A DNA stretch of 37,761 nt. Origin: a virus. Positions 7,096 through 32,680 of the stretch are shown piece by piece. The notes beneath the pieces were generated by a model. The model did no database searches and was not told the DNA's origin. It saw only the letters and a list, made by a program, of their open reading frames with translations. The position numbers were made by a program, and so were the translations under genes. Each line of letters opens with the position of its first letter. Positions within the stretch are counted from its first letter, which is position 1. The stretch lies in IMG/VR virus record IMGVR_UViG_3300033141_003432, positions 1 through 37,761 of that record. One strand, 5' to 3'.

Positions 7096-7989
7096 ATGAG
7101 ACTTGAGCCTCAAAAAAGATTTCCTATAACGCGGACTTTAGACCCGCTAGATACTGACACTAATTATGTCAGGGCTTTGGTTTATCATCTAAAAACAGAT
7201 GACACCGAAACTCTTTTAGCTACCGTTGACTTAACCGATCAAACCGGTCAACGGTTTTTAAAATACTGGCGAATTAAAGCCCAACAAGCTGATGAGGGAG
7301 ACTGGATAAGAATTACTACTACCGTTTATACTGACTCGGGCTACACGACTGAAAATGAAAATTATAGAGAAGAGACTAATCTTCACTTAATTAAAAGAGA
7401 AGTTAAAAGTTATGGTGGCGGCGGAACCAGTGTTGATTATAAGAGAATTAAGCAGATGATTGATGACGCAGTTAAAAGATTTAAAGTACCCCGGCCCAAA
7501 ATTACTGTTAAACCAACGCCAGTTTCAGTAAAATTAAACCCGGTTACTGAAACTTTAAGTAAAGTAGTTGAGGCAATTAAAAATGGTAATGAAATTACCA
7601 CAAAACAAAAACAACAATTAAAAGAGTTGACTGATCAAGTTAAAGGTGATTTTGAAATTACTAAGCAAGCGATTAGAGATTTACCTACACCACCAAGTCT
7701 AAAGCCAGTTGAAGAAGCCCTAAAAGGTGATACTAAAAAAACTTCTGAGGCAATTAAAGCCCTAGAAGATTTTAATAAAACAATGCTAGAAACGCGGAGA
7801 ATACACGGACGGATAGATTTGTTATGGCAGATTTTCTCCGCCGCCAAAAAGAATTTTGAGTTTGTCAAAGTTGCCGCACTTCAGATTGAATTACAAAAAA
7901 GAGATAAGGAATTAGCCAAGACTTTAGAGCCTATTTTTGACATAGCAAAGAAATTAAATTTTTTATATGCTCAGGATCAACAACAATAG
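7096..7989 (+). CDS. Coiled-coil fibre-associated protein, hypothetical
   Basis: A 297-residue protein. Residues 1-105 are beta-rich (RALVYHLKTDDTETLLATVD and similar strands), resembling a small virion-attachment domain. A glycine hinge (YGGGGTS) follows. Residues 115-297 are Lys/Glu-rich with heptad-like spacing, predicted to be long coiled coil with a TPPSLKPVEEAL break. No membrane helix. It overlaps the giant fibre gene by 23 bases, so the two are translationally coupled; it could be the trimeric stalk or connector of that fibre (inference). Confidence 0.66.
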   Translation: MRLEPQKRFPITRTLDPLDTDTNYVRALVYHLKTDDTETLLATVDLTDQTGQRFLKYWRIKAQQADEGDWIRITTTVYTDSGYTTENENYREETNLHLIKREVKSYGGGGTSVDYKRIKQMIDDAVKRFKVPRPKITVKPTPVSVKLNPVTETLSKVVEAIKNGNEITTKQKQQLKELTDQVKGDFEITKQAIRDLPTPPSLKPVEEALKGDTKKTSEAIKALEDFNKTMLETRRIHGRIDLLWQIFSAAKKNFEFVKVAALQIELQKRDKELAKTLEPIFDIAKKLNFLYAQDQQQ

Positions 7990-10900
7990 AGGTAGCGTTA
8001 CTCTTTCATTATTGCTCGCCGTAGCAGTTTTAGGGGGATTTTGGGTATTATCACCTAAATTGGGTATAAATCAGCTAAAAACCCCTGTTGAAGAGCTAAA
8101 TGAGGGAGATATTGAGGCTGGAACCCGGGTTAGTCAGACTGCCCGGCAACAGATGAAAGCAACCACAACTCCTTTTTCCGCAGTAACTACACGGACTTGG
8201 GCTAAGGATTTATATTTACCCGGATCAAATGTAACCACGACTGGCACAATGGCCGCCGGTATTTTTTCACTTGACGGCGATCGTATTACTGATTTTACTG
8301 GGACTAATTTAAGTGTAACTAATGGGATATTAAATGCTGCCTGTGGCGGTGCTGGAGGAGGAAGCAATTGGTTGTTCGGAATAGACCAAACTTATATTAC
8401 TCCGTCTACTTCAGTGGGAATTATTGTTAATGCTTCTTCAACGATTGCCGCTGATTTGATAATAGATGGTTCAGCTACCACTACTGCTACCTCAACGGCT
8501 CAAGGCTTCAAGGGTCTTAATTTAATTAGTTGCGATACAATAGATACAGATATTAACGGTGAATTAGTTTGTGGTTCTGACGATACTGGAGTAGGCGGGA
8601 CTGGTTCTAATTGGTTATTTGGCATTGATCAGACTTTTATTACTCCTTCCACTTCAAAAGGGATAATAGTCAATTCTTCTTCAACCATTGCGGCTGATTT
8701 TAAAGTAGACGGTTCAGCTACTACTACCAGTTCTTTATATGTCGGCGGTGAGATTGAATCTGCTGGTGATATGAACGCTTCAACTAATGGTTCGTCACAG
8801 GCAATCCCAAGAATCTTTGGATATAAAGATTTAACTTCAGGGGAAGCGGCAAGATTTCAATTCGGCGATAAGCATAATGCTTTACAAAATGCCTATGCCT
8901 CTGATGTGAATTTATATTCTTATTGGGGCTTGGTTTTAACTGGCGGGAGACAAAATTACAATAGCGGATTTAATGCTATACCTTTTAGTAAAACTTTGGA
9001 TACTGGCGTGTTAGTCAAATCAGATGTTCCTGGAACAGGAAACGACCCTGGAAGTTCTGGTAACCCTATTACCACATTCGGTATTCAAGCTACAACTACT
9101 CAATGGGCTAATTTAACTGAATGGATGGATTCAAGCGGCAGTACTTTATCGTTGGTTGATTACGAGGGAAATTTTGTGTTGGGTGATACGGCAACATCTA
9201 CTGAATATAAGTTGAGAGTAGTTGGAGATACTTATCTTGATGGTAGTGCTACCACTACTGCTACCTCAACGGCTCAAGGCTTCAAAGGACTTAATTTAAT
9301 TAGTTGCGATACTATTGATACTGATGCTACAGGACATTTCGTGTGTGGCTCTGATGATACTGGAGTAGGCGGGACTGGTTCTAATTGGTTATTTGGCATT
9401 GATCAAACTTTTATTACTCCTTCTACCTCAGTTGGTATTATAGTTAATGCCAGTTCAACGATAGCGGCAAACTTTACAGTAGACAACAATGCCACCACAA
9501 CGGGTATTCATACTGTAAGTGAATCTCTACATATCACTGGCTCCTCTACTCTGCCGATAATTGAAATTCATCCCAATACTCATAGCGGAATAGCAAATAG
9601 AATGATTGATATAGTCCCTCAGTCTGCTTTGGTGAATGCCGCTCACCTGACAGGATATAGATTTTCAGGCGATAATTTAGACCCTGCTGACGCTGATTCA
9701 AGGGTTAGAGGAATGGCAATAAATCTTAGTGGAATGGATATGACCAATGTTCCTGAAAGCGTAAACGCAATAAGATTGATTATGCCTGCTGGACTTACTG
9801 GTCAAGCAAGAAATGCCGTTGATGCGATTTACATACAAGACGGGGACATAGACCATAATTATTCTGTTCCTAATACAGCATTATCTCATTTTACCGCTTA
9901 TGATTTTGTGATAGATTCACACCTTTTGGCCGCCAATTCAGAGATACACACGATAGACGTGTCAACTTCAGACGGCATACCCGCAGGAGATGTAGCTGGG
10001 TTGGCTGTTCATACTTATGTTGACCCAATCCATCAGCATATAGGGACTTATACTTCTCCTTCCCAGACAGAATACGCAGGAGAGAAACATACAAACGGAA
10101 CAGTGTGGGCTGACGGGATAGACGGATCTGAGATACTTATTAAAAATAGTGATGAGGTTTATATTGGTTCAGCAGCGAAGTTCTCTGAGATAGAAGTTAT
10201 AATGACCACTGGGGCTACCAAACATATTGGTCTTACCTTTTGGTTCAATACTGCGGCGGATGCCTGGACTCAGTTTTATCCATTAGACGGAACTGAGGGT
10301 TTTCAGCAATCAGGTCTTATTCACTGGGATGAAGATAATATACCGACTTGGACTAATGATGGCGACCCAGGCGGTGCTGAGAGTTCAGCAGGCTACTGGA
10401 TAAAAATTATCAGAACTTCAGTTCCTGACCCAGGAACTCCAACCCCAACTACGATGAAAACAGGAACTTTCACTTTTTATTCTTGGAATCATTTGGGTAA
10501 TTTGGATATTTTAAACGCTACTACCACTGGCTGGCTTAATGTCGGAGTAACTGTGCCAACTAACGAAATGGGGGTTGGCGACTTGTTTGTAGGAAGTAGC
10601 GCTACCACGACTAATACTATGTATGTTGGAAATGCTTTGTATGTGGCCACAACCACGCCATCAACAGGATATGAGTTAGCCGTGACGGGAGACGGGATAT
10701 TTAGTGGAGATTTAGAAGTTGACGGAACTATCTTTGGAGATATAACTGGTGACTTAACTGGCAATGCTGACACGGCCACGGCTTTGGCCGCTAATGGCGG
10801 TAATTGTGCGGCTGGCAGTTATCCTCTTGGCGTAGACGCAAACGGAGCAGCAGAATCTTGCACAGACGCTACTACTGAGATTGATACAGCGATAGCGACC

Positions 10901-12331
10901 CATGCTGGAGATGATGATGCTCATCAAGCCTTAGTTACTCTTGCGGGACAGGATTATTTGACTTTATCAACTCAGGAGATAACAGCAGGAGAAATAGAGC
11001 CCGACGACTTGGCTAGTTCTGACTTTGGGGATTTTACTTGTGATGGAACTAATTGTAGTTTTGATGCCGATACAGTTGCGACCAGTGAAATACTTTTATC
11101 AGATGACTATGCTTGGACAGGCTTACATACTTGGACTGACGCTAGGCCAGCTTCTCTTAACGCTACTACCACTAATGTTGATACCTTGGGAATTTATACC
11201 TACGCTTCTACTACTGGCTATATGGTAGTCGGCACAGGCAAGAACGCTTTGATCCCAACAGCAGGTGATTTATTTATCAGTAAAAATGCCACTACCACCA
11301 ATCACTTTTCGGCTGATTCTACTTTGTATGTGAAAGATAGTAAGGTAGGGATAGGTACGGATAGTCCTTCAGGAATGTTAGAAATAGAAGGAACGAATCC
11401 ATTATTAACTTTTGATGGCGACCCAACAGGTGAATCAAGAATAATTGGATTAGACCCTAATGGTTTTGTTATTTATAACGCAGATGATTCTGCTTATGAA
11501 TTAGTAATTGATAATACACATAATGTAGGAATAGGCACGGCAGCTCCACATGCCCAATTAGAAGTAGCTGGCACTCCATCTATTATGTTTAATACGGCAA
11601 GTGACACTTATTTACATAATTTAGGCGTAACAAATGCGAGCGGATTAAGGACAGGAACAAACAGCAATTTTAATATGGATATAGCTTTTACTGGTAAGAT
11701 AAACTACAACACTCGTGATATTACGGGAAATAGGGATTTATCTTTTACAACGGGAGGTGGGACGGTTGATGTAATGTATTTACACGGCGGTTCAGATGCT
11801 GCGGATGAAGGAGATGTTGAAATTGTTAACGAATTACTTATCAGCGATTATATTAAGCATAGTGGAGATACTGATACTTATTTAAAATACTCCGCAAATC
11901 AAATGAGTTTTTATGCTGGTAATACTTGGGCGTTGGATTTAACGGCAGCGACAGCCTTATTTAATCCTGCTATTGCTGATGTAGATTTTTCAATAGGTTC
12001 AACAGAGACAGCAAATTCATTTTTTCTTGAAGGGAACACTGGCAATGTAGGGATAGGTGCTGGTTCTCCTGATTACAGACTTCACATTACAGACGGGGCT
12101 AACGATTTATTCACTGTGGAGGATGGGGGAAGTACTGGCAATGTTACGACTACTGGAAACTTTGTGGCTGGTATAGATGGACAAACAGGAACGACCACTG
12201 TCCAGTTTGGCGATGTTAATGTGTCTGCTTGTTTAAAAATAAGAGATGTAGGAAATGATGCTTGGTCATATTGTATCATAGACGCCGCAACTTGGAGTTG
12301 TGATACCACGGGAGCAGTTTGTGATAATTAG
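7967..12331 (+). CDS. Giant fibre/adhesin with N-terminal membrane anchor
   Basis: A 1454-residue protein. N-terminal NNRG-SVTLSLLLAVAVLGG is a membrane helix that vaguely recalls type IV prepilin leaders but lacks the Glu at +5. Residues about 130-510 hold three copies of a module starting SNWLFGIDQT and ending CGSDDTGVG, with SATTT/ATSTAQG stretches in between. Middle residues (about 510-880) contain a unique beta-rich insert. The C-terminal third has tail-fibre 'VGIGT--P---LE' repeats (nucleotides about 11350 and 11530). There is no S74-type chaperone at the end. The role is probably receptor binding or host-surface display. Similar Thr-rich modules occur in CPR surface proteins (from memory). 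Confidence 0.75.
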   Translation: MLRINNNRGSVTLSLLLAVAVLGGFWVLSPKLGINQLKTPVEELNEGDIEAGTRVSQTARQQMKATTTPFSAVTTRTWAKDLYLPGSNVTTTGTMAAGIFSLDGDRITDFTGTNLSVTNGILNAACGGAGGGSNWLFGIDQTYITPSTSVGIIVNASSTIAADLIIDGSATTTATSTAQGFKGLNLISCDTIDTDINGELVCGSDDTGVGGTGSNWLFGIDQTFITPSTSKGIIVNSSSTIAADFKVDGSATTTSSLYVGGEIESAGDMNASTNGSSQAIPRIFGYKDLTSGEAARFQFGDKHNALQNAYASDVNLYSYWGLVLTGGRQNYNSGFNAIPFSKTLDTGVLVKSDVPGTGNDPGSSGNPITTFGIQATTTQWANLTEWMDSSGSTLSLVDYEGNFVLGDTATSTEYKLRVVGDTYLDGSATTTATSTAQGFKGLNLISCDTIDTDATGHFVCGSDDTGVGGTGSNWLFGIDQTFITPSTSVGIIVNASSTIAANFTVDNNATTTGIHTVSESLHITGSSTLPIIEIHPNTHSGIANRMIDIVPQSALVNAAHLTGYRFSGDNLDPADADSRVRGMAINLSGMDMTNVPESVNAIRLIMPAGLTGQARNAVDAIYIQDGDIDHNYSVPNTALSHFTAYDFVIDSHLLAANSEIHTIDVSTSDGIPAGDVAGLAVHTYVDPIHQHIGTYTSPSQTEYAGEKHTNGTVWADGIDGSEILIKNSDEVYIGSAAKFSEIEVIMTTGATKHIGLTFWFNTAADAWTQFYPLDGTEGFQQSGLIHWDEDNIPTWTNDGDPGGAESSAGYWIKIIRTSVPDPGTPTPTTMKTGTFTFYSWNHLGNLDILNATTTGWLNVGVTVPTNEMGVGDLFVGSSATTTNTMYVGNALYVATTTPSTGYELAVTGDGIFSGDLEVDGTIFGDITGDLTGNADTATALAANGGNCAAGSYPLGVDANGAAESCTDATTEIDTAIATHAGDDDAHQALVTLAGQDYLTLSTQEITAGEIEPDDLASSDFGDFTCDGTNCSFDADTVATSEILLSDDYAWTGLHTWTDARPASLNATTTNVDTLGIYTYASTTGYMVVGTGKNALIPTAGDLFISKNATTTNHFSADSTLYVKDSKVGIGTDSPSGMLEIEGTNPLLTFDGDPTGESRIIGLDPNGFVIYNADDSAYELVIDNTHNVGIGTAAPHAQLEVAGTPSIMFNTASDTYLHNLGVTNASGLRTGTNSNFNMDIAFTGKINYNTRDITGNRDLSFTTGGGTVDVMYLHGGSDAADEGDVEIVNELLISDYIKHSGDTDTYLKYSANQMSFYAGNTWALDLTAATALFNPAIADVDFSIGSTETANSFFLEGNTGNVGIGAGSPDYRLHITDGANDLFTVEDGGSTGNVTTTGNFVAGIDGQTGTTTVQFGDVNVSACLKIRDVGNDAWSYCIIDAATWSCDTTGAVCDN
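8474..8631 (+). repeat. Fibre module direct repeat, copy 1
   Basis: Repeated at 9248-9405 with a constant offset of 774 bp (258 codons). 8582-8631 is identical to 9356-9405 over 50 bp, and the first 38 bases are also identical; a short middle part has diverged. The repeats bracket a 616-bp segment (8632-9247), so recombination could delete, duplicate or swap that fibre module in frame. Confidence 0.9.
9248..9405 (+). repeat. Fibre module direct repeat, copy 2
   Basis: Second copy of the repeat at 8474-8631. A third, more diverged protein-level copy starts near 8365. Exact identity at both ends with divergence in the centre suggests gene conversion or recent exchange. Confidence 0.9.
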
Positions 12332-20649: not shown

Positions 20650-21960
20650 ATGGCTAAGAAAACTCTACAACCTAATCCTGACAATCCGTGGTTTGGTATC
20701 CCGGCGTCAATCAGTAGTAAAATGGAAACTACTGAAGAAGCACAGGCTTATTGGGCTAATCTAGCTCCACCAGCCGAGGAGCCAGTTGCTGAAGAACCGG
20801 AAGTAGAGGAACCAGCGTTAACTACTCGCTTTCCTACCCTAGTTGATAAAAGAAAAGAAACTGAAACCGAACGGTATTATAGGGAGCTTGATATTACCAA
20901 ACCAACCGCCGCAGAAGAAGAGGATATTAGAGAACGCTATCGCAGACAAGTCCAGCCTCTTTTAGATGAGATTGAAAAAACTTTTGGTTTTCGTTTAGCT
21001 GAAGAGGCTTTAACCGGTAAAGGTTATGTTGGTAGAGCGAGGGCTATGGCTGGCCGGGGGCCGGGCTTAGGTTCGCCCAGAGGTCAGGCTCAGATAGCCG
21101 GAGCTGAAACAAGAGTGGCTGGTATAAGAGCGGCTACCTTAGCCGAGAAGCGTTTAGAAATTGCCAAAGTTTTAGATTTAGCCACTACCCGGGCTGATGA
21201 AAGGCTTAAAGCTGAGACTGAATTAGCTAAGACTAATACAGAGGCTTGGCTTGAATTTCAAAAAGGCCAGCAAGAGGAAGCGCGGGCTAACATTATTGGC
21301 TTAGCTTCAATGGGAGTTACTACTGATGAGTTAGAAGCTGAAGGTACTTTATTAAAAGATTTACAAGAGCAGTCCGGCTTAGAGCCATTACTCTTTGAAG
21401 TTTTATACAATGCCAACTTACCTGAAAGTGAAAAGATTGACTGGAAGCCTCAAAAGATTAGTGATGAGAAGATATTATTTTATGGCGTTGACTCTATGGG
21501 GAATTTAAAAACTAAAGAATTTGATTATAGTTTACCTGAAGGCGAGGAGTTAAAAATAATTGATGATATTGCCTATGGTTATAAAGAAGACGCGGCGGGG
21601 AATTTGATATTAAGGCCTTTACCCGGGCAAAAAGAAAAAAAAGAAGAAGAGAAAGCCCCTGAAACTAGAACGGTTAGCGGTAACTTATATCAATACAATA
21701 CTGAAACTAAAAATTGGGATTTAGTTATTAAGAAAGTTCCTACTGGCAAAACCGACGAGGAGGCTAAATTTTTTAGTGAGGTTAAAAAATCTCAAGAGGC
21801 TTTTAGGAAGGGAGCTAATTGGGCCGAAGAATGGAATCGTTTATATTATAAATGGGGAGGTGGAGATGAGCTGGGGAAACTTCTGGATGATTTATTGAAT
21901 AAAGAATTTTGGGGCCAAGAGGGAGCTTTCGCAAAATTTCAGGGTTCAGGTGGCGGTTAA
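20650..21960 (+). CDS. Internal virion protein, hypothetical
   Basis: 436 residues. Proline/Glu-rich start (PPAEEPVAEEPEVEEP), then a long helical region at about 70-230 (RYRRQVQPLLDEIEKTF and many Ala/Glu/Arg heptads, with a Gly-rich GRGPGLGSPRGQAQ turn), then a mixed C-terminal domain. It starts two bases after the collar stop and precedes the polyvalent protein. The place and the long helices fit an ejected internal core protein. No catalytic motif seen. Confidence 0.6.
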   Translation: MAKKTLQPNPDNPWFGIPASISSKMETTEEAQAYWANLAPPAEEPVAEEPEVEEPALTTRFPTLVDKRKETETERYYRELDITKPTAAEEEDIRERYRRQVQPLLDEIEKTFGFRLAEEALTGKGYVGRARAMAGRGPGLGSPRGQAQIAGAETRVAGIRAATLAEKRLEIAKVLDLATTRADERLKAETELAKTNTEAWLEFQKGQQEEARANIIGLASMGVTTDELEAEGTLLKDLQEQSGLEPLLFEVLYNANLPESEKIDWKPQKISDEKILFYGVDSMGNLKTKEFDYSLPEGEELKIIDDIAYGYKEDAAGNLILRPLPGQKEKKEEEKAPETRTVSGNLYQYNTETKNWDLVIKKVPTGKTDEEAKFFSEVKKSQEAFRKGANWAEEWNRLYYKWGGGDELGKLLDDLLNKEFWGQEGAFAKFQGSGGG

Positions 21961-21976
21961 TTAAATAGTTTAAACT

Positions 21977-24900
21977 ATGGCACTTGACTTTGGCAAAATT
22001 CGGCAACGCATGACTGGCGAAGCCCCGGCAACAAAAATCAAGCCGAGGCTTGATTTTTCTGCTATAAGAGAGAGATTACCAAAACTAGCCATACCACCTG
22101 CCCCGACGGAACCTGAGCCAGTAGCAAAACGATTACCTGCTTGGGCCGGCGGCGGCGAGTATTTAGTAGTCCCGGGTATGCCCGGTGAGTTAGCTAGAGA
22201 GGAGCGTGGTTATGGTACTTTTAAAGTTAAAGCTGGTAAAGAGCGAGACCATATTATACCGGTGGCTTTAGGTGGTACTTCTCAAGACCCTAACATCCAA
22301 TATCTCAATGACGCTAATTGGTTTGATAAAACTTTTAGAAAAAATCCTTTTGACAGGAAAAGTCGGCAACAGGGTAAAATGGTTGTTGAGCTTAAAGCTA
22401 TTGAAGATTATGAGGCGGGTGATATTAGTTTGGCCGAAGCCCGGTTGAGAGTTGCTAACTGGGATAATGTACCACCAAGTAAAGTTAAAATTTGGTTTGA
22501 CGCTATTACTGAGACGGCCGCCCCGGTTATAAAAGAGCTTAGAGGTTTACCGGCCGACGAGCCATTGTTTCAGTTACCTACCAGTGAACAAAAAAGAATT
22601 TGGCGGGAGGCCACAAAAGAAGCGGTGGTAAAAGTCAGTCAAGATGTTGGTAGATTTTTCTTTGGCTTGCCATTTGAGTTTGGCTTAGATGTTGTTTCAG
22701 GTATTAAAGAGTTGGCTGGGGGAGAGCCAATTAAAGAGGTTCAGATACCAGTAGTCTCAACAGTTACCGGAAAGCTAAAGCCTCACTCTGAAGTAAAAAA
22801 AGAACAGCAAGCTCAAGGCCGAGAGATAGCTAAATCTATGGGGGTTACTGACCCTGCCGCTCAGGGAGCGCTAGGGGCGGTGATTCCTTTTATAACTGAA
22901 GACTTATTAAGAGCAGTGGCGACTGCGGGTATAGCCGTTCGCTTGGGAGCCACGGGTGGGGAGATTGCTAATTTAAGAAATTATAATAAGGTCGCTGATT
23001 TTAAAGTTAAGTCGGGTGAGATTATCCAACCACCGGCTAATCAAACACCTTTTGAAAAATTTGTTGTTGGTAAAGCCCCTCGGGTAAAAAATTTTGAAAT
23101 TCCCCTAACTGATACTAAAGGTAATACTGGATTTGTAAAATTTAATGAAGTACCGGCCGGAGTTAGGGTTAGAGTATATGCTCCAGCTAATTTAAAAGGC
23201 GCGCAGAGTATAGTACCAACTACACCAGCCGGAGTAAAAGCAATAGTCCCGGGTATTACTCCACCGCCCGCCCCGGCGCCAGCCGTCAAGCCACCAGTTG
23301 TCCCACCAGTAGTTAAACCAGTACCACCAATTAGTAGACCTGATTTTGCTAAAATCCGAGCAGAAGTTAAGATTGCCCCTCCTGCGCCGGTAGCCCCTGA
23401 AATACCTAAAGTTACCCCACCAACCCCAAAACCCGCTAAAATCGTGCCTGAGGTGGCTAAAAAGGTGGTTCCTGAGCCAATTACACCTGATTTTTCACAG
23501 TATAGTGAAGCATCTAAAAAGACAGCTTTGGCATTTGAGCAATCAAAAAATCAGGTTCCAATCGCCAAACTTGGTGAAATCCAATTTGAAATGGGAGATT
23601 TCGGGAAAAATAAAATTGTTAGTAAAGTGAAACAAGTTGATCGTTTTTCAGCTAAAGAATTGCCAGAGACTATAAAAAATATAAAAAGTAACTATCGGGC
23701 CAGTGATGACCCAAAAAATTATCGAGTTGATAATAAAGTCTGGGTAGCTGAAATGCCAGACGGAGAATTAAGAGCGATTTATACTAGGGTTAATAAAAGT
23801 GGATTAGAAGAAATAATAAATTGGCACAAAATTAATAAACAAAAAGCTCCAGAGTATCTATCCACTCTGAAGTCTTTTGGCAGTCCCACTGGGATTCGAA
23901 CCCAGAAAATTCCCTTAGAAGGGGAGCGGTTTGTCCGGTTAGCCTATGGGACCAAGCCTAGTATACCACAACCTAAAAAGCCTGTCAAGTCTTTTATTGA
24001 AGAACAAAAAAATAAAGTTGATCAACTTGATACTGAAATATTTGAACAAGTTGAACAATTTAGAAAAGATTTAGGTTATAAAGTAGATAAGACAGGTAAA
24101 GGTAGGGTTACTTATAAAATAGCTGGGGAAGAATATACAGCTTTTAGTTTAAAGAAATTAAAGAGGGGTATGGCTAAAGAAGCTAACGCCATGAGAGCGG
24201 AAGCTAAGCGTATTTTGTATGAAAATGATCCCGAGTTCAGAAAATTAGTAGACAAATACGACGAGTTATGGAGAGAAACATCAGGTAAAGATATTAACGT
24301 TGATAAAATATTTAATGAATTGACAAAGGAAATTGAAATTTATGAGCCTAAGACAAAACTTCCCGAAGTGGGACGCCCGGCTCCGAAGGTTGAAAAACCT
24401 AAGAGAGCAGTTGAGGCAGAGGTTAAGCCAAAAGTTGAACCTAAAAAAGAAATAAAAAAACTACCTAAGTCTGTAAAGGAAAAATTTAACAATGCGATCA
24501 AGGGGATAAGAGAAGATATTAAAGAAGACCCGGATGGGCACCCCGCCGCTATAATTCACGGCCGAGGGTTTACTTTTGTAGACGACCTTGAGGCTTTGTA
24601 TGATTATGTTGTTTCAAAAGGTGATACCGGGTTTGCGAAAATAATGGAGGAAGCTGGTGTAGTAAAAAAGAAACCACCAATACCTAAAGCTAAACCAAAA
24701 GAGTTTAAGGTTGGTGATGTTATAGAAACATCAGAAGGATTAAAACAAACAATCAGAGAAATAAAAGGTAATAGTGTATATTTTACTGATGAAAAAGGTG
24801 TTGATTATTTTGGGTTTGCTCGCTCAACCTTACGAACCCTTATTAAAGAAGGTGCTTGGAAAAAACTTGAAGTAGAAAAACCACCGATACCACCAGCTAA

Positions 24901-27511
24901 ACTACCTGACCTTAAAAAACCATCAGAAAAGGAAGTAAGATTAATGGCTGGTCTTGATCCGGGCTTGGATAAATTCCTTGCTGAAGATGCTAAACCTATA
25001 ATTGATAAAGCCAAAGAGGCTGGGAGATTTTTATATAGCTTTACTAGGGCTATCCCTGAGATAATTTTACGGGCGTTGGAGCCAGCTAAAATAGTTGAGA
25101 AGAGACTCGGCCATGAGCCTTATACTACGGTAATGCGGGCTATTCACCGGCCTGAGCGGAAATTGTTGGAGTTTGATGAGATGCGCCTCAAAATTTTTGA
25201 CAGCAATTATAAAGAGATGGAAAAATGGTTTAATAATTTTTCTGAAAAAGAATTAGAAAACTTAATGTTTTCAAGAGGTGATCCAAACTCAGGAGAGGCC
25301 TTAATGATTCAAGATGAGGCTAGAAAAGCATTACCGACGGCACTAAAAGAACCTAGTATTATTAATGCAATCCAAGAAATAGCTAACTTTAACTATGAGT
25401 ATTTACAGACAGTAGTTGGGGATGATATTACTAAGGTTGAGGATTATTTCTATGGTCTTTACAAAAACCCAGGGATGGTAACAAAGTTTTTAGATTTTTG
25501 GAGAACGACAGAGAGATTTATTAAAGAGAAAAAATTGCCGACAGTAGCCGATGCTGAAGCTTTCGGTTTAAAATTAGTTGATGTAAACCCGGTAACTAAC
25601 CTTAGAAAAGAGTTTAGGGCTATTGCTAGACTAGAATCTTTACGTTGGATGGCTGAAGAGTTGTTGCGAATAGGGGATAGTAAATATATTGCTCTCTCTA
25701 CTGAGGCCCCAACTGTCAGTTATATGGCTGGAAAAATGTGGGAGAGTGTCCCGGACCCAACTTTCAAAGGTTTAGTAATGGAACCGTCGTTAGCTAATTT
25801 GATCAATAAGATGATAGCTACTAATAAGATTACTAGGCAACCATTACTTAATGCGTGGCGGCGGCTCAATAATACTTTAAGGCAGATCAAGTTCTTAGGG
25901 TCAGCTTTTCATTTGGGAGTTGAGGCCAAACAATCCGTTGCTGATGCTGGCTATTTAGGTTTTTATAAACCAACCGCAATCAGGGGTATTACCACCGGAT
26001 TTAAAAAAGATGATCCAATATTTAAAACTGAAGAGTACCGGGATTATATTGAACTTGGCGGTGGTCATCATTATAGTATTGAAGCTGAAGCCCAAAGAGA
26101 ATTAATTGAAATGTTTGATAAAATTTCGAGAGGCAACTATCTTGGCGGCATGATAAAGATGGGACTTGTACCATTTAAAGTTCCGGTTGGTTTCGTGGAG
26201 TGGATGTTTAATGATTACATTCCAAAATTAAAATATTCTAAATATTTGGATTTTCAGGCTAGCCAAGAGAAAAAACTTAACAGACCACTTACTGATAACG
26301 AAAAAATAAATATCATCAAAGAGGGGCAGAATTTCTATGGCGAAATGAATGAGCGCTTATTTGGCCGGAGTGGTACAGTTACCACGGCCTTGCGTTTTGT
26401 ATTTATGGCACCAGGTTTTGCTGAAGGTAACTACCGGACTATTCTTAAAGGGCTATTTCAATGGGGAGCCACTGCGAAGCTGGTTAAAAAACCTACCGGA
26501 AAGTTTGGGATTAAAGTTGAGAAAGGTAAAAACTTTAATGCCAACCGCTCAAGAGCAAATATGTTTAGCTCTCTTATTCTAACTGCTATTCTTGCAACAG
26601 TGGGGACTTTAATTCTTACTAGAAAGTGGCCCAAGAAACCTGAGGCACTAGAGGATGTTAGAGATATTTTTAAAATTGATACCGGAGTGGTTGATGATAA
26701 AGGTCGAAGAGTGTTGATTGACTTGCTTACTTATGATAAAGATTATTGGAATGTGATGTTTAATGTTTTACAAGGTCGGCCGGATAAAGCAATCTCGGAA
26801 AGTATTATTAGAATTGGTGGCATGAAAGCTACTACTCTTGGTGTTTTTTCTGACCTCACCAAGCTGATGATGGGTGAGGCCTTGTATGATTGGAAGGGAG
26901 ACAGGGTGCTTGAGATTACTGATACCTTTACTGAGCAGATGTTAAAGTTGGTAATTTATGAACTCAACCGGGCGCAGCCTATTTCTTTAAGCGTTTATCA
27001 ACAATCACGCCGAAGAGAAGCTGGTGTTATTATTTCAATTTTACAAATGGTAGTTGGGGTGCGGCCAACTAAAACAGAAGCAGATAAAGAAAAGCAAAAA
27101 GTAATGTCTCGGATTTATTCTCTCAAGGGCCAACAAGAAGAGCTTTACCAATACCTCGGTACTATTCGGAACCCCCGGGCAGCCATTGATGAGTATAATA
27201 CTTTAGTCATGCGGATTTTAAATAGTGAGATGGTAGAGAAGGAAATTAAAGAAGAGTGGGAGCCAAAGTTGATAGTTGATGTTGAACGGCTGCTGAGTAA
27301 TAAAGTTTATAGTTTGGCTGATCCGAAAGTTAGTCAAGAAGAGATTGACAAAAAAGTGAAGTGGCTCAAGAATTTTGACATTGATTTAGACGAGGCCTTA
27401 AAACTACTTCAGATTTATTGGGAAAGGCACCCGGTTAAAAATAGATTAAGCTCAACTCACTTAAAAAATGTTCGGGCTAGAGATCAACGACTCCGAGAAA
27501 GATTTGAGTAG
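21977..27511 (+). CDS. Large polyvalent virion protein with HNH-like domain
   Basis: 1844 residues. Residues 78-170 hold an HNH-like nuclease motif, DHIIPVALGG (His92) then NIQYL and a basic KNPFDRKSRQQGK stretch. A Pro-rich linker (about 415-485) follows. Residues about 510-660 form a mixed alpha/beta module, part of which is encoded by DNA that on the other strand is a tRNA gene (about residues 635-659). Residues 1010-1844 are mainly helical, with a membrane-like helix near 1530 (SLILTAILATVGTLIL). A short motif, DFxxIRxx, occurs at about residues 4, 26 and 456. Proteins of this size and mix in podoviruses are packaged and ejected with the DNA as early effectors. Confidence 0.72.
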   Translation: MALDFGKIRQRMTGEAPATKIKPRLDFSAIRERLPKLAIPPAPTEPEPVAKRLPAWAGGGEYLVVPGMPGELAREERGYGTFKVKAGKERDHIIPVALGGTSQDPNIQYLNDANWFDKTFRKNPFDRKSRQQGKMVVELKAIEDYEAGDISLAEARLRVANWDNVPPSKVKIWFDAITETAAPVIKELRGLPADEPLFQLPTSEQKRIWREATKEAVVKVSQDVGRFFFGLPFEFGLDVVSGIKELAGGEPIKEVQIPVVSTVTGKLKPHSEVKKEQQAQGREIAKSMGVTDPAAQGALGAVIPFITEDLLRAVATAGIAVRLGATGGEIANLRNYNKVADFKVKSGEIIQPPANQTPFEKFVVGKAPRVKNFEIPLTDTKGNTGFVKFNEVPAGVRVRVYAPANLKGAQSIVPTTPAGVKAIVPGITPPPAPAPAVKPPVVPPVVKPVPPISRPDFAKIRAEVKIAPPAPVAPEIPKVTPPTPKPAKIVPEVAKKVVPEPITPDFSQYSEASKKTALAFEQSKNQVPIAKLGEIQFEMGDFGKNKIVSKVKQVDRFSAKELPETIKNIKSNYRASDDPKNYRVDNKVWVAEMPDGELRAIYTRVNKSGLEEIINWHKINKQKAPEYLSTLKSFGSPTGIRTQKIPLEGERFVRLAYGTKPSIPQPKKPVKSFIEEQKNKVDQLDTEIFEQVEQFRKDLGYKVDKTGKGRVTYKIAGEEYTAFSLKKLKRGMAKEANAMRAEAKRILYENDPEFRKLVDKYDELWRETSGKDINVDKIFNELTKEIEIYEPKTKLPEVGRPAPKVEKPKRAVEAEVKPKVEPKKEIKKLPKSVKEKFNNAIKGIREDIKEDPDGHPAAIIHGRGFTFVDDLEALYDYVVSKGDTGFAKIMEEAGVVKKKPPIPKAKPKEFKVGDVIETSEGLKQTIREIKGNSVYFTDEKGVDYFGFARSTLRTLIKEGAWKKLEVEKPPIPPAKLPDLKKPSEKEVRLMAGLDPGLDKFLAEDAKPIIDKAKEAGRFLYSFTRAIPEIILRALEPAKIVEKRLGHEPYTTVMRAIHRPERKLLEFDEMRLKIFDSNYKEMEKWFNNFSEKELENLMFSRGDPNSGEALMIQDEARKALPTALKEPSIINAIQEIANFNYEYLQTVVGDDITKVEDYFYGLYKNPGMVTKFLDFWRTTERFIKEKKLPTVADAEAFGLKLVDVNPVTNLRKEFRAIARLESLRWMAEELLRIGDSKYIALSTEAPTVSYMAGKMWESVPDPTFKGLVMEPSLANLINKMIATNKITRQPLLNAWRRLNNTLRQIKFLGSAFHLGVEAKQSVADAGYLGFYKPTAIRGITTGFKKDDPIFKTEEYRDYIELGGGHHYSIEAEAQRELIEMFDKISRGNYLGGMIKMGLVPFKVPVGFVEWMFNDYIPKLKYSKYLDFQASQEKKLNRPLTDNEKINIIKEGQNFYGEMNERLFGRSGTVTTALRFVFMAPGFAEGNYRTILKGLFQWGATAKLVKKPTGKFGIKVEKGKNFNANRSRANMFSSLILTAILATVGTLILTRKWPKKPEALEDVRDIFKIDTGVVDDKGRRVLIDLLTYDKDYWNVMFNVLQGRPDKAISESIIRIGGMKATTLGVFSDLTKLMMGEALYDWKGDRVLEITDTFTEQMLKLVIYELNRAQPISLSVYQQSRRREAGVIISILQMVVGVRPTKTEADKEKQKVMSRIYSLKGQQEELYQYLGTIRNPRAAIDEYNTLVMRILNSEMVEKEIKEEWEPKLIVDVERLLSNKVYSLADPKVSQEEIDKKVKWLKNFDIDLDEALKLLQIYWERHPVKNRLSSTHLKNVRARDQRLRERFE
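23878..23953 (-). tRNA. tRNA-Arg(TCT), antisense inside polyvalent gene
   Basis: Read on the minus strand, 76 bases form a full cloverleaf: 7-bp acceptor GGTCCCA/TGGGACT (first pair G-T), T8 A9, D arm GGCT/AACC with GG in the loop and one C-A mismatch, anticodon arm CTCCC/GGGAA with loop CTTCTAA (anticodon TCT, one C-A mismatch), a 4-base variable loop, a perfect T arm CTGGG-TTCGAAT-CCCAG, discriminator G and an encoded CCA. It would read AGA codons, which this phage uses freely for Arg. On the + strand the same DNA is translated as the familiar antisense-tRNA peptide SPTGIRTQ within the 1844-residue protein, with no frame break. Confidence 0.88.
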
Positions 27512-27555
27512 TGGATAACTTGGGTATTGACATAGTTTTCGGGATATGATAAGAT
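27511..27555 (+). promoter_or_regulatory. Early promoter with overlapping DnaA-type box
   Basis: TTGACA (27527-27532), a 17-base spacer and TGATAAGAT (27547-27555, extended -10) form a strong promoter. GTGGATAACT (27511-27520), matching the DnaA box core TTATCCAC on the other strand, ends 6 bases before the -35. Start site about 27562, ATG at 27577. It probably drives the small-gene operon to 30772. Confidence 0.7.
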
Positions 27556-27576
27556 GTGTATAACTAATACAAAACT

Positions 27577-28107: not shown

Positions 28108-28384
28108 AAAAGTAAAAAGAAAACCAAAATTTGAAACAGGTACTATTATTGGTGCCGAGGTAATAAAAGTTGATGGAGATTTTATTTTATTTAAAAAACC
28201 TAGAGTCGATTTATTTAGAGGTAAGAAGTATAATGGCCATTATATTATTCTAATTAATTTTAAAGAAAATAAAGAGTGTTCTTTTTGGATTAGAGATATA
28301 ACTGAATTAGATAAGCCAGAAATATTTAATCTTTACTACGAAGAGTTGGTAAATGCAATTAATAAAATAATTAAAAAGAAATGA
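28097..28384 (+). CDS. Hypothetical small basic protein
   Basis: 95 residues: strand-rich N-terminal two thirds (GTIIGAEVIKVDGDFILFKK, HYIILINFKENKECSFWIRD) then a helix (LYYEELVNAINKIIKKK). It looks like a compact alpha/beta fold. The stop TGA overlaps the next ATG, proof that TGA is a stop in this genome. No motif recognised. Confidence 0.6.
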   Translation: MIYKKVKRKPKFETGTIIGAEVIKVDGDFILFKKPRVDLFRGKKYNGHYIILINFKENKECSFWIRDITELDKPEIFNLYYEELVNAINKIIKKK

Positions 28385-28878
28385 CAAAGGAGAGACTAAA
28401 TAATTTAATTGAATCCGTAAAGGCTGTAAAATCCCAGAGAGGCTACAATGCCCGGGAAGAACTTATCTATGAGAAATGGGAGATTGGTGAATGTATTATT
28501 AAAGAACCAGAATATATTAAATCTGCAAAAGGTAGTGGAGAGATTATTGATGCTATTGCTGAAGCCTTAGAAATGTCAACAACTGATATTCATTATTGTA
28601 TTCAATTTTTTACTGAGTACCCTGATGGAGTTTCCACGGCCATGGAAAAGCTAGGAATGGACGCAAGCTGGACCAAAATTAAAGAAGAGTGTTTAGGCGC
28701 GGAAAAAGAAGAAAAGATAAAAGAACCCCGGTATAAACTATCAGAAGTTGAGAAGGCTTTTAGGAATTGGATTATAAAATTTAATAGATCGGGTAATGGT
28801 GTAGGACAAGAGAATTTTGATTTAGCAGAAACAGATATAGACATTGAGTGGAAAAAATTTAGTAATTTACTTAAATAA
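28381..28878 (+). CDS. Putative helical DNA-associated protein
   Basis: 165 residues, mostly helix. Residues 25-75 have a W-IG--I---E start and a later AIAEALEMSTTDIHYCIQFF stretch that recalls the N-terminal winged-helix region of DUF1016/DUF3102-type proteins. The match is weak and from memory. The C-terminal third is charged and ends within an acidic helix. It directly precedes the nuclease gene, so a DNA transaction role is plausible. Confidence 0.5.
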   Translation: MTKERLNNLIESVKAVKSQRGYNAREELIYEKWEIGECIIKEPEYIKSAKGSGEIIDAIAEALEMSTTDIHYCIQFFTEYPDGVSTAMEKLGMDASWTKIKEECLGAEKEEKIKEPRYKLSEVEKAFRNWIIKFNRSGNGVGQENFDLAETDIDIEWKKFSNLLK

Positions 28879-28909
28879 AGAAGATTTCACCGGTGGTGGA
28901 AAGAACTAT

Positions 28910-29350
28910 ATGACCATTAATAGTAAAATTATAGGCAACAACGCCGAGAACGACTGGGCTACCTTTCTAAAAAATAGAGGTATAGATAAACTGGCCCGGA
29001 GAGATAAGCAATCCGGCGGTGGCAATAAAGAAAAGTCTGATATTGGCAACAGTTTAAATATCAACTTTGAAGTCAAGGCCGGCAATCAGGTCCCAAAGAA
29101 ACTAGAGGATTTTTATGCGCAATCTCTTAATGCCGCTTGTAAAACCCACACTATCCCCTATGTAATTCTAAAACGCCGTTTTAAGCGTCAAGACGAGTTT
29201 TTAGTGGTAATGAATGGTTTTGACTGGGCTGACCTCTATAAACGCGCTAGAGAGCCAAAGAAGGTAGACTCAGCAGACAGGGAGATAGGCTGGGCGTTGA
29301 AGGGAGTTATCATGGCTTGTAAAAAGTTATTAAAATTAGTTGATGTATGA
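28910..29350 (+). CDS. PD-(D/E)XK nuclease, Holliday-junction-resolvase-like
   Basis: I start it at ATG 28910 (146 residues), after GGTGGTGG and just before the first conserved helix; an upstream start at 28844 overlaps the previous gene. Key residues: Glu13 in NNAEND, Asp44 (KSDIG), Glu54-x-Lys56 (FEVKAG), then a QSLNAA helix and PYVILKR strand. This order, E-xn-D-x9-ExK with SGGG before the Asp, matches phage resolvases of the archaeal Hjc/VRR-like fold. It would resolve branched DNA before packaging. It is one of only two recognisable DNA-metabolism proteins here. It ends in an ATGA overlap. Confidence 0.76.
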   Translation: MTINSKIIGNNAENDWATFLKNRGIDKLARRDKQSGGGNKEKSDIGNSLNINFEVKAGNQVPKKLEDFYAQSLNAACKTHTIPYVILKRRFKRQDEFLVVMNGFDWADLYKRAREPKKVDSADREIGWALKGVIMACKKLLKLVDV

Positions 29351-30463: not shown

Positions 30464-30772
30464 ATGAGTGAAGAAGTACGCGAGGGAGTTACTGATACTC
30501 AGCCAACTCCACCACCGCCACTACCATTAGTGCCGGATCAAAAATCATTAAAATTAGAGAGAATTGTAAATGCTTTTCTAATTGCCGTTCTTGCCTTTAT
30601 AGTCGGAGCTATGATGATGGCGTTTAAGGATACTCCTAGTGCCTCTGACGCGGCCGAGGAAGCTATCAGTAGAGTAATAAGGCGAGACTATGAGCAAGTC
30701 GCAAATGAGACCCTTTTAAAAGTCATTAAAGAAAAAGGGCTTTGTAACACCTTAGAGGCGACAGAAGAGTAA
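30464..30772 (+). CDS. One-pass membrane protein, hypothetical
   Basis: 102 residues. A Pro-rich cytoplasmic start (DTQPTPPPPLPLVPDQ), one membrane helix at about 37-58 (VNAFLIAVLAFIVGAMMMAF), then an acidic helical tail. This is the topology of bitopic holin or spanin-like proteins. It ends the operon that holds the 3D hydrolase, just before the structured RNA at 30793. Confidence 0.6.
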   Translation: MSEEVREGVTDTQPTPPPPLPLVPDQKSLKLERIVNAFLIAVLAFIVGAMMMAFKDTPSASDAAEEAISRVIRRDYEQVANETLLKVIKEKGLCNTLEATEE

Positions 30773-30786
30773 ATTTATAATATAAT
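30758..30786 (+). promoter_or_regulatory. Promoter for structured RNA B
   Basis: GCGACA (30758-30763, 4 of 6 matches) with a 17-base spacer and TATAAT (30781-30786); a second overlapping TATAAT lies at 30776-30781. The start site would be near 30793, exactly where the non-coding structured region begins. Confidence 0.55.
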
Positions 30787-30792
30787 AAGAAA

Positions 30793-31080
30793 ACGGTGCG
30801 CCGGACTCATTACTCTAGCGTATGCGCAGGTGCTAAGGTGATTACCTGAATTGACAGGGAAGGGACAACTGGGTGGAGTTTAAATCATCCTAGCTTTAGC
30901 ACTCATCTTTTGATGGCGATTGGTAAGTTCGACCTACCAGCCAAAAGTTAGTTTTACTGATAAACCTTTCTAACTTATCGCCATCAGAGGTTGGGGATAA
31001 AAAAATCCCGGGGCCGAAATTGGATATACCCGGGAACAAAAACTCACTAGCAGTTTTTAGTTTATAAACAGGTTGTCTAC
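30793..31080 (+). ncRNA. Structured intergenic RNA B
   Basis: A 350-base gap with a promoter in front and no convincing gene. Core: a 10-bp perfect stem TGATGGCGAT/ATCGCCATCA (30911-30920/30977-30986) closing a three-way junction with TGGTA/TACCA (30921-30925/30935-30939) and AAGTTAG/CTAACTT (30945-30951/30970-30976), the latter stacked directly on the closing stem. Downstream GGGAT/ATCCC (30994-30998/31005-31009) competes with CCCGGG/CCCGGG (31007-31012/31029-31034). 30862-30889 matches 2915-2948 in RNA A (GGGACAA, GGGTG and TTTAAATCATC), and AAACCTTTCTA is also shared. Likely a phage small RNA of a family present twice. Confidence 0.65.
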
Positions 31081-31122
31081 TTGTTAAGACGCAGTTTAAC
31101 ACATTTTATTACACTTGTCAAT

Positions 31123-31332
31123 ATGACGCCGCTACAAACAACTTGCCGTAAGTGTTCAAAACCAATTTTCTTTATAAAGACTAAAAAGGGAAAACACATG
31201 CCGGTTGATCCGAAACCGATAAAGGTAATTACTGAGGAAGGTGAGGTGGTTACTGGTTATTTTCCTCACTGGGCTATTTGTACTGACCCGGACGCCTTTA
31301 GGAAAGGTGGGAAGTTTTTTGAGGGTGGATAA
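31123..31332 (+). CDS. Zinc-ribbon protein of a common phage type
   Basis: 69 residues from ATG 31123; a TTG at 31081 is poorer. Zinc ligands: CRKC (residues 8-11), later HW-IC (about 56-59). The pattern CRKC-KPIFFIKT-KGK-MPVDP and PHWAIC is a small ribbon family common in phages. Function unknown. A weak promoter (TTGTTA 31081-31086, TTTTAT 31104-31109) with a TGTTAA/TTAACA inverted repeat precedes it. Confidence 0.66.
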   Translation: MTPLQTTCRKCSKPIFFIKTKKGKHMPVDPKPIKVITEEGEVVTGYFPHWAICTDPDAFRKGGKFFEGG

Positions 31333-31357
31333 CTCTTTTATAAAGTCGTGGTATAAT
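31325..31357 (+). promoter_or_regulatory. Extended -10 promoter with DnaA-type box, dnaA-IV gene
   Basis: TGGTATAAT (31349-31357) is a perfect extended -10; no good -35. GTGGATAACT (31325-31334) sits just where the -35 would be. Start about 31364, so the leader before ATG 31368 is about 4 bases, near-leaderless. The box placement suggests that the protein regulates its own gene. Confidence 0.65.
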
Positions 31358-31367
31358 GTAGATAAGT

Positions 31368-31733
31368 ATGACTCAAGACCAAAAAATACAATTAAAAAAG
31401 AAGTTGATTGAAATTTCAACCCCTGAAGAGTTTATCAAGTTTGTAGCTGAATTTCACGGTTTTGACCTAGAAGCCATGTGCGGTCCCGCCCGACACCGAG
31501 AGCTAGTTGATGTCCGCGCAAAGATAGTACGGGCGTTGAAAGATAAGTGGAATATGACCTATGTTAGTATTGGACGGCTTCTAAATCGCGATCATACCAG
31601 TATTTTATACCTATACCGACGGCCTGTTACTAACTTGTGGAAGGTACCTGAAAATCCTCTTGATGGAGTGTGTACAGTTGAGGGTGAAAAATCAGAAGAG
31701 AAAAAAGAGTATAATTTACCAACAAGTCAGTAA
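31368..31733 (+). CDS. Stand-alone DnaA domain IV-like DNA-binding protein
   Basis: 121 residues. Residues 10-85 match DnaA domain IV: an R-R-L-VDVRAKIVRALKD helix and the signature IGRLLNRDHTSILYLY (RDHT at 74-77), which in DnaA reads the box TTATCCACA. The AAA+ ATPase, domain I and domain III are all absent, so it cannot open DNA itself. The C-terminus is a short acidic/basic tail. It lies between two copies of the matching box (31325 and 31753) and next to an AT-rich gap. Inferred role: recruits host DnaA or helicase to the phage origin, and regulates early promoters; it could also act as a decoy that blocks host initiation. Confidence 0.85.
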   Translation: MTQDQKIQLKKKLIEISTPEEFIKFVAEFHGFDLEAMCGPARHRELVDVRAKIVRALKDKWNMTYVSIGRLLNRDHTSILYLYRRPVTNLWKVPENPLDGVCTVEGEKSEEKKEYNLPTSQ

Positions 31734-31890
31734 TAGTTTGTCTACAGGTGAGGTGGATAAGTCAAAATAATTATTCGCTTATTTTAACCAAAATTTAGAG
31801 TTATCCCTATTATCCACTTTCTTATTATTATTATTAAATATATATATAAAGATTATAATAATAACAGTTAATTCTTAAAGAAAAAAACTT
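31734..31890 (+). other. Candidate replication origin
   Basis: A non-coding gap with two DnaA-type boxes in opposite orientation: GTGGATAAGT (31753-31762) and TTATCCAC (31810-31817), plus a degenerate AGTTATCCC (31799-31807). They are followed by a highly AT-rich stretch (31820-31868, runs of TTA, TATATATA and TAATAATAA) that would serve as an unwinding element. It lies immediately after the DnaA domain IV gene, as origins often do. Confidence 0.66.
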
Positions 31891-32076
31891 ATGATGTCTG
31901 AAGAAGACCAAACTCAAGATGAAGGCCAAGATGAAGGTCAAGACACTGGTGATGAAAACACCGGTGATGATAGCGCAAAAGATGAAGGTGCTGAAGGTGG
32001 CGAAGAAGCCGCCGGGGACGAGTCTACCGAAGACTCGAGTGGTGACTCTGATGAGTCGGATGACGACGATAAGTAA
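31891..32076 (+). CDS. Small hyper-acidic protein
   Basis: 61 residues, nearly all Asp, Glu, Gly, Ser and Thr (DEGQDEGQDTGDENTGDDS and similar), with no hydrophobic core, so it is disordered. It resembles the acidic tracts of the scaffold (2981) and 2210 proteins. Such a polyanion can mimic DNA and bind nucleoid or restriction proteins; that is a known trick of phage DNA mimics, only inferred here. Confidence 0.58.
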   Translation: MMSEEDQTQDEGQDEGQDTGDENTGDDSAKDEGAEGGEEAAGDESTEDSSGDSDESDDDDK

Positions 32077-32374: not shown

Positions 32375-32680
32375 ATGGTTAAAGACAATGATATTAAATA
32401 TACTCCGGTTGGTAAAAGGATTTTAATTGAGTTGCCGGACCCAACAAGAAAGACTAAGCATGGGATTTTATTACCGGAAGTCAGTAAAAAAAAGGAAAAA
32501 GAGAATAAAGCCACAATAGTTATGTTTGGCCTAGGTTATTCTGAAGAGAAAATAGCCGAGACGGGTTTACACTTAGCCGATGAAATTCTTTTTAATGAAG
32601 TATCAGGGGAGCTTGTTAAACAGGGCAAAAGACGCCTTAAGATTATAGAGTTAGGGGATATTTACGCAGTAATAAAATGA
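32375..32680 (+). CDS. GroES-like co-chaperonin
   Basis: 101 residues with the Cpn10 layout: YTPVGKRILIELPDP (strand 1, as in 'PL-DRV-V---'), mobile loop TKHGILLPE (residues 27-35, the G-IVL contact to GroEL replaced by G-ILL), roof segment, then ADEILFNEVSG and KIIELGDIYAVIK at the end, matching the C-terminal 'ESDILAIVE' strand. Like T4 gp31, it would cap host GroEL and enlarge or adapt the cage for the capsid protein. It overlaps the next gene by 4 bases (ATGA). Confidence 0.84.
   Translation: MVKDNDIKYTPVGKRILIELPDPTRKTKHGILLPEVSKKKEKENKATIVMFGLGYSEEKIAETGLHLADEILFNEVSGELVKQGKRRLKIIELGDIYAVIK

Follow-up and report, generated by a model that had tools for sequence, protein, structure and literature searches.

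DnaA is the protein that opens bacterial chromosome origins, and many well-studied tailed phages supply their own initiator or an entire replisome. The virus record IMGVR_UViG_3300033141_003432 raises the question of how a phage genome is copied when it encodes the DNA-binding domain of DnaA beside an AT-rich gap and no recognisable replication enzymes, and of what such a domain does there. The window, i.e. the whole stretch of DNA analysed here, is the whole virus record (37,761 bp); both of its ends share a 114-bp direct repeat, so the genome is effectively circular with a size of 37.65 kb. The majority of its ORFs have no family match, and those identified with Pfam, PHROGs and NCBIfam encode TerL, the major capsid protein, a tail collar protein and GroES, together with a weak match to a portal protein. 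A tRNA-Arg(tct) gene (23878–23953, minus strand; Rfam, 52 bits) lies antisense within the 1844-aa ORF 21977–27511.

An earlier note on this DNA had recognised no replication proteins and proposed a profile search for replication folds. The search agrees with it: Pfam, PHROG and NCBIfam profiles revealed no polymerase, primase, helicase or SSB in the 37.8-kb genome, and a RusA-like resolvase is the sole nucleic-acid enzyme found apart from packaging. ORF 21977–27511 was covered by PHROGs and NCBIfam and ORF 20650–21960 by PHROGs, neither of them by Pfam, and the fibre-type repeat protein of ORF 7967–12331 lay outside the coverage of all three. No ORF in the non-structural module (27.6–34.4 kb) exceeds 234 aa, which makes it implausible that a polymerase or a DnaB-type helicase is hidden there; a small SSB or loader among the window ORFs is possible. 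Scanning the window for Walker A motifs gave only scattered, chance-like matches, and the structure model of 28381–28878 is all helical and of low confidence, with no evident replication fold. The genes of most concern here are:

28844–29350, plus strand: RusA-like Holliday junction resolvase / PDDEXK nuclease (phrog_244, E 2.8e-11)
31368–31733, plus strand: stand-alone DnaA domain IV protein (DnaA-IV), 121 aa (Pfam PF08299, residue alignment, structure model and Foldseek)

A stand-alone DnaA domain IV

The ORF at 31368–31733 is confirmed as a stand-alone DnaA domain IV and not a full-length initiator, in keeping with the domain IV without an ATPase that had been claimed before. PF08299 matches residues 20–84 with 36.3 bits (cutoff 31.5) and scores 37.1 bits at the DNA level in a frame without a stop, and the matches of NCBIfam full-length DnaA models are confined to their C-terminal 70 positions. 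The AAA+ domain III, with its Walker motifs and ssDNA-binding motif, is absent from this ORF, whose open frame spans 123 codons. The protein consists of a short N-terminal helix, a helix-turn-helix domain IV (aa 20–84) and a disordered C-terminal tail. Its AlphaFold model has a mean pLDDT of 69, with domain IV mostly at 74–89, and the first PDB matches in Foldseek are DnaA DNA-binding domains (3pvp, rmsd 1.4 Å; 1j1v, 1.5 Å), the cryo-EM complex 8btg of a BUS (defined below) being also among them. In an alignment with E. coli DnaA and 19 Patescibacteria DnaAs, DnaA-IV keeps the equivalents of E. coli R399, R407, D433, H434 and T435, with T436 replaced by S and Q408 by A; from the E. coli structure, we take the equivalents of R399, R407, Q408, D433, H434, T435 and T436 to be DnaA-box contact residues.

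Stand-alone DnaA domain IV is already known in phages, being annotated in pelagiphages, DB virus 2 and PHROG 27829. Pelagiphages HTVC204P, HTVC203P and HTVC100P, Octadecabacter DB virus 2 (DB2), Rhizobium phage RHph_N3_2 and PHROG 27829 likewise have small proteins in which DnaA domain IV is the sole recognised part. The window protein shares 25–28% identity over the alignment with those of the pelagiphages, DB2 and RHph_N3_2, and its loop before the DHT motif lacks one residue, a feature also of the HTVC204P and DB2 proteins. The profile of PHROG 27829, annotated as 'DnaA-like replication initiation protein', matches it weakly (E 0.0055, 17.7 bits). Genes for annealing proteins are present at the pelagiphage and DB2 loci, joined in DB2 by those for an SSB and a polymerase subunit; no convincing BUS was found beside DnaA-IV in the pelagiphages, DB2 or RHph_N3_2.

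Anatomy of the adjacent gap and of two promoters

Immediately 3' of the gene lies a 157-bp gap (31734–31890) with 21% GC, in which both the genome-wide minimum of GC (50–150-bp windows) and the minimum of duplex stability (60 and 100 bp) fall. The earlier note had described it as AT-rich and box-bearing, which holds good, as this is the least stable stretch of the genome and carries DnaA boxes; the tandem boxes, spacer and trios had been missed. Its features are:

31752–31760, minus strand: DnaA box TTATCCACC, left flank of the putative origin
31801–31809, plus strand: DnaA box TTATCCCTA, 2 mismatches, upstream member of a tandem pair
31810–31818, plus strand: DnaA box TTATCCACT, 1 mismatch, abutting the preceding box and co-oriented with it
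31822–31836, plus strand: five DnaA-trios, TTA five times on the plus strand (3'-AAT-5' on the minus strand), 3 nt past the box
31818–31890, no strand: putative DNA unwinding element, lowest duplex stability genome-wide (stability scan)

A BUS is defined by a DnaA box (≤2 mismatches), a spacer of 0–16 bp and at least three DnaA-trios, and a further box in the same orientation is frequent (PMC8287927); co-orientation of the boxes is also described in PMC10721633. The trio criterion is a middle adenine, 3'-[GA]A[TA]-5' (PMC8287927), and in C. difficile oriC2 the trios read CTA/TTA on the box strand, as 5'-CACCTACTACTATTACTACTATGA-3' downstream of the boxes (PMC7561715). Read from 31801, the order in the phage is TTATCCCTA-TTATCCACT-TTC-(TTA)5-AATATATATATAAAG, i.e. 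the sequence features of a BUS with boxes at 31801–31809 and 31810–31818, a spacer of 3 and five 3'-AAT-5' trios. No perfect TTATCCACA box occurs anywhere in the phage genome. With BUS thresholds that were set after the site had been seen, a box with ≤1 mismatch followed by five trios was reproduced in none of 200 dinucleotide shuffles of the whole window and none of 5000 shuffles of the 157-bp gap, and the box plus five-trio arrangement did not occur across 902 kb of other viral DNA. By its anatomy, the gap is thus a canonical BUS and a putative DnaA origin, at which strand separation and the start of replication would be expected.

The gap resembles bacterial oriC BUS (B. subtilis; PMC8287927, PMC10721633) in its co-oriented tandem boxes, short spacer, three or more trios and AT-rich element. 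It differs in being phage-borne, in having boxes 1–2 mismatches off consensus and a 3-nt spacer, and in having a neighbouring 'dnaA' without domains I–III. The locus as a whole resembles a bipartite dnaA-oriC, with boxes 5' of the gene (31324 and 31357) and with further boxes, the trios and the putative unwinding element on its 3' side. GC skew is about equal on either side of the putative origin (0.144 versus 0.149), so the origin is neither placed nor confirmed by skew. A strongly acidic, low-complexity protein (31891–32076) starts directly after the putative origin, and others of this kind are encoded at 2210–2803 and 2981–4066.

DnaA boxes are also found at two predicted promoters, that of the DnaA-IV gene and that of the early module:

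31324–31332, minus strand: DnaA box TTATCCACC, upstream box of the DnaA-IV promoter, overlapping the stop codon of the preceding gene
31352–31357, plus strand: predicted -10 TATAAT (extended TGg) of the DnaA-IV gene
31357–31365, minus strand: DnaA box TTATCTACA, fused to the DnaA-IV -10, over the predicted start site
27510–27518, minus strand: DnaA box TTATCCACT, upstream of the early promoter
27527–27555, plus strand: predicted early-module promoter, TTGACA-17-TAAGAT
27555–27563, minus strand: DnaA box TTATACACA, fused to the -10 of the early promoter

At both promoters, one box thus lies upstream and another, in the same orientation, starts on the last base of the -10. Such a pair with a -10 fusion occurs twice in the window, whereas one pair was found in 2 of 300 shuffles and two pairs in 0 of 300. 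The fused register by itself, lacking a second box, often turns up in shuffles (54 of 200 reach two), and promoter-box fusion alone was dropped as a signal, the box-pair version alone being significant. The box pairs have the expected look of autorepression by a box-binding protein, from which we infer repression; DnaA-IV could equally activate.

Upstream of the DnaA-IV locus, the non-coding stretch 30785–31085 folds better than shuffles (z -2.2), as does 2805–2985 (z -3.8). By eye, the two have GGGACAA...TTTAAATCATC...AAACCTTTCTA in common and are possible structured RNAs of the phage; Rfam gave no match on 30700–31150.

Recurrence in other phages and hints of a host

Searches of IMG/VR with DnaA-IV and TerL found no close relatives of the genome. 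A TerL profile scan yielded 80 distant phages, three of which carry DnaA-IV; these have just TerL in common with the window and a GC-rich (60–64%) DnaA-IV locus, and were set aside as another lineage for these two reasons. IMG/VR was also scanned with the motif TTATCCAC-N(1-13)-(YTA)4, which matched 78 contigs, compared with 47 for a scrambled box and 53 for a reversed box. At least three further boxes within 400 bp were present at 27 of the 78 true-motif loci versus 0/47 and 0/53 of the controls. Fifty of the 78 BUS records were searched whole: domain IV was matched in five (four over cutoff), and no full-length DnaA was found, the longest frame being 193 codons, which makes these contigs unlike chromosomal dnaA-oriC fragments. 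The 27 contigs with a BUS and at least three extra boxes (among L175–L252) are probable host-DnaA-driven phage origins, judging by these motifs. DnaA-IV was lacking in 21 of the 23 whole-searched records among them, so it appears dispensable as an initiator. Absence of DnaB or PolA did not discriminate BUS records from controls (2/21 versus 7/28 and 0/21 versus 1/28, respectively), and many of the records are fragments. MT837747 (L165), with many perfect boxes around its DnaA match, may be chromosomal and was left out.

A stand-alone DnaA-IV beside a BUS is present in three unrelated phages, namely the window, G466 (L232) and G431 (L179). In G466, a fragment carrying tail and baseplate genes, an 84-aa DnaA-IV is followed about 130 bp downstream by TTATCCACTTCC(TTA)6 in the lowest-GC stretch of the record. 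In G431, which has portal, capsid and terminase genes, DnaA-IV is followed by a face-to-face double BUS. Both encode a PDDEXK nuclease like the window, and no polymerase or DnaB was found in the G466 fragment or among the matches listed for G431; unlike the window, G431 also has RecT and ParB. The arrangement at 677–748 of L179 (box-GGCTC-trios ... trios-GAGCC-box) could be a symmetrical bidirectional origin. The virion genes of G466 and G431 differ from those of the window, indicating that the combination of DnaA-IV and BUS arose or spread independently of virion genes. A study that looked for asymmetry in the positions of DnaA sites in alphaproteobacterial phages detected none (PMC9437464), and no description of a DnaA-trio or BUS origin in a phage was found in the open-access literature searched. 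Two things appear new: that a phage with no recognised replication enzymes pairs DnaA-IV with a canonical BUS, and the signs that origins of the BUS type recur among phages.

The box-spacer-trio layout also occurs on the dnaA strand, just 3' of dnaA, at 4 of 20 Patescibacteria dnaA loci (L145, L151, L157 and L162), the same strand and downstream position relative to a dnaA-type gene as in the window; the other loci, most of the 20, fell short of the BUS criteria used. The 1454-aa repeat protein (7967–12331) carries the motif LISCDTIDTD, and proteins matching its repeat occur in 6 of 240 Patescibacteria genomes, including a Woesebacteria MAG, which is a hint of the host or of surface proteins in common. 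This repeat match suggests Patescibacteria as a tentative host. The GroES co-chaperonin gene (Pfam Cpn10, 32375–32680), which sits in the non-structural module, was rejected as a host marker, as the sampled Patescibacteria GroES proteins are not close (best matches 32–44% identity). Extra DnaA-IV copies in Patescibacteria genomes were not used either, the 117-aa L029 running off its contig end.

Possible roles of DnaA-IV and their meaning

The reading we lean towards, with some confidence, is that host DnaA opens the phage origin, and that DnaA-IV acts on the same boxes to regulate copy number and transcription. The region 31300–31890 would then be a compact dnaA-oriC-like replication and control locus. 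Full-length host DnaA would bind the tandem boxes at 31801–31818, load on the five adjacent trios and melt the AT-rich element, after which the phage circle would be copied by host DnaB, primase and polymerase III. DnaA-IV would recognise the same boxes as host DnaA and repress two promoters, its own and the early one at 27.5 kb; its competition with host DnaA at the phage origin would set copy number or replication timing, as a brake or a switch. The oligomerisation and ssDNA-binding residues of DnaA domain III are required at BUS, and domains III–IV together are sufficient (PMC8287927, PMC10721633). Having no AAA+ domain, DnaA-IV cannot melt an origin or form the trio-gripping oligomer, and should therefore compete with DnaA there. 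Because most BUS phages are without DnaA-IV, initiation is probably the task of host DnaA, with DnaA-IV in an accessory role. The earlier note had read the locus as hijacking host DnaA or blocking host initiation. The hijacking part is now strongly supported, the gap being a canonical BUS and more than AT-rich DNA with boxes, whereas the blocking part is only possible; since two promoters of the phage itself, and its origin, carry box pairs, self-regulation is our first reading of DnaA-IV.

Such blocking would make DnaA-IV a host take-over protein that, in excess, fills the boxes of host oriC and halts host initiation during phage replication. Competition for boxes is what one would expect of a domain IV that lacks AAA+, the DNA-contact residues are largely kept, and the idea, already suggested in the earlier note, has a precedent in the E. 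coli prophage protein YfdR, which inhibits DnaA initiation via DnaA Phe46, a DiaA/DnaB-contact residue (PMC4776307). YfdR is likewise phage-derived and linked to DnaA initiation, although it binds the DnaA protein in a Phe46-dependent manner and is not known to act through boxes. We consider take-over unlikely, since blocking would also hit the phage's own origin, whose boxes are of the same kind, and since the DnaA-IV gene lies between its own boxes and appears autoregulated.

DnaA-IV might instead be a positive origin factor or phage initiator that marks the boxes of the phage and brings in host DnaA or helicase, as its position next to a BUS in three unrelated phages and the annotation of PHROG 27829 would suggest. 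That role is quite improbable given the 21 of 23 BUS and box-cluster records that do without DnaA-IV, and given that the missing AAA+ domain is the seat of ssDNA binding and oligomerisation, the residues for which are required where domains III–IV suffice (PMC10721633, PMC8287927).

We hold it to be very improbable that the boxes serve only as operators for DnaA-IV as a transcription factor, that the AT-rich run belongs to a promoter, and that replication starts elsewhere, for example by recombination-dependent replication with the RusA-like resolvase. The box pairs at two promoters, the resolvase gene and the unchanged GC skew agree with this, but tandem boxes, spacer and five trios at the least stable DNA are unneeded for transcription, and the BUS arrangement is absent from shuffles and viral background. 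That the phage has replication proteins of its own that escaped recognition, and that the DnaA-IV/BUS locus is a relic from a host, is scarcely credible: most ORFs lack a family match and the collections searched hold no close relatives, but the non-structural ORFs (≤234 aa) are below polymerase or DnaB size, Walker A matches are chance-like, and the DnaA-IV and BUS module recurs in other phages.

Beyond this one genome, regulation by DnaA-IV at an origin opened by host DnaA leads to a tentative proposal, whose chance we put slightly below even: a class of dsDNA phages may replicate as host-DnaA-driven 'minichromosomes', starting from captured BUS-type oriC elements and lacking replication enzymes, with a subset of them, this phage among them, using an ATPase-less DnaA-IV as governor of origin and promoters. 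If this is true, a BUS module and a DnaA DNA-binding fragment would constitute a minimal replication strategy, in which phage copy number is tied to the host's own initiation signal. The locus is a compact natural system for the role of an ATPase-less DnaA domain IV at origins, and the recurrence of BUS origins suggests that the origins of metagenomic phages could be called from sequence alone.
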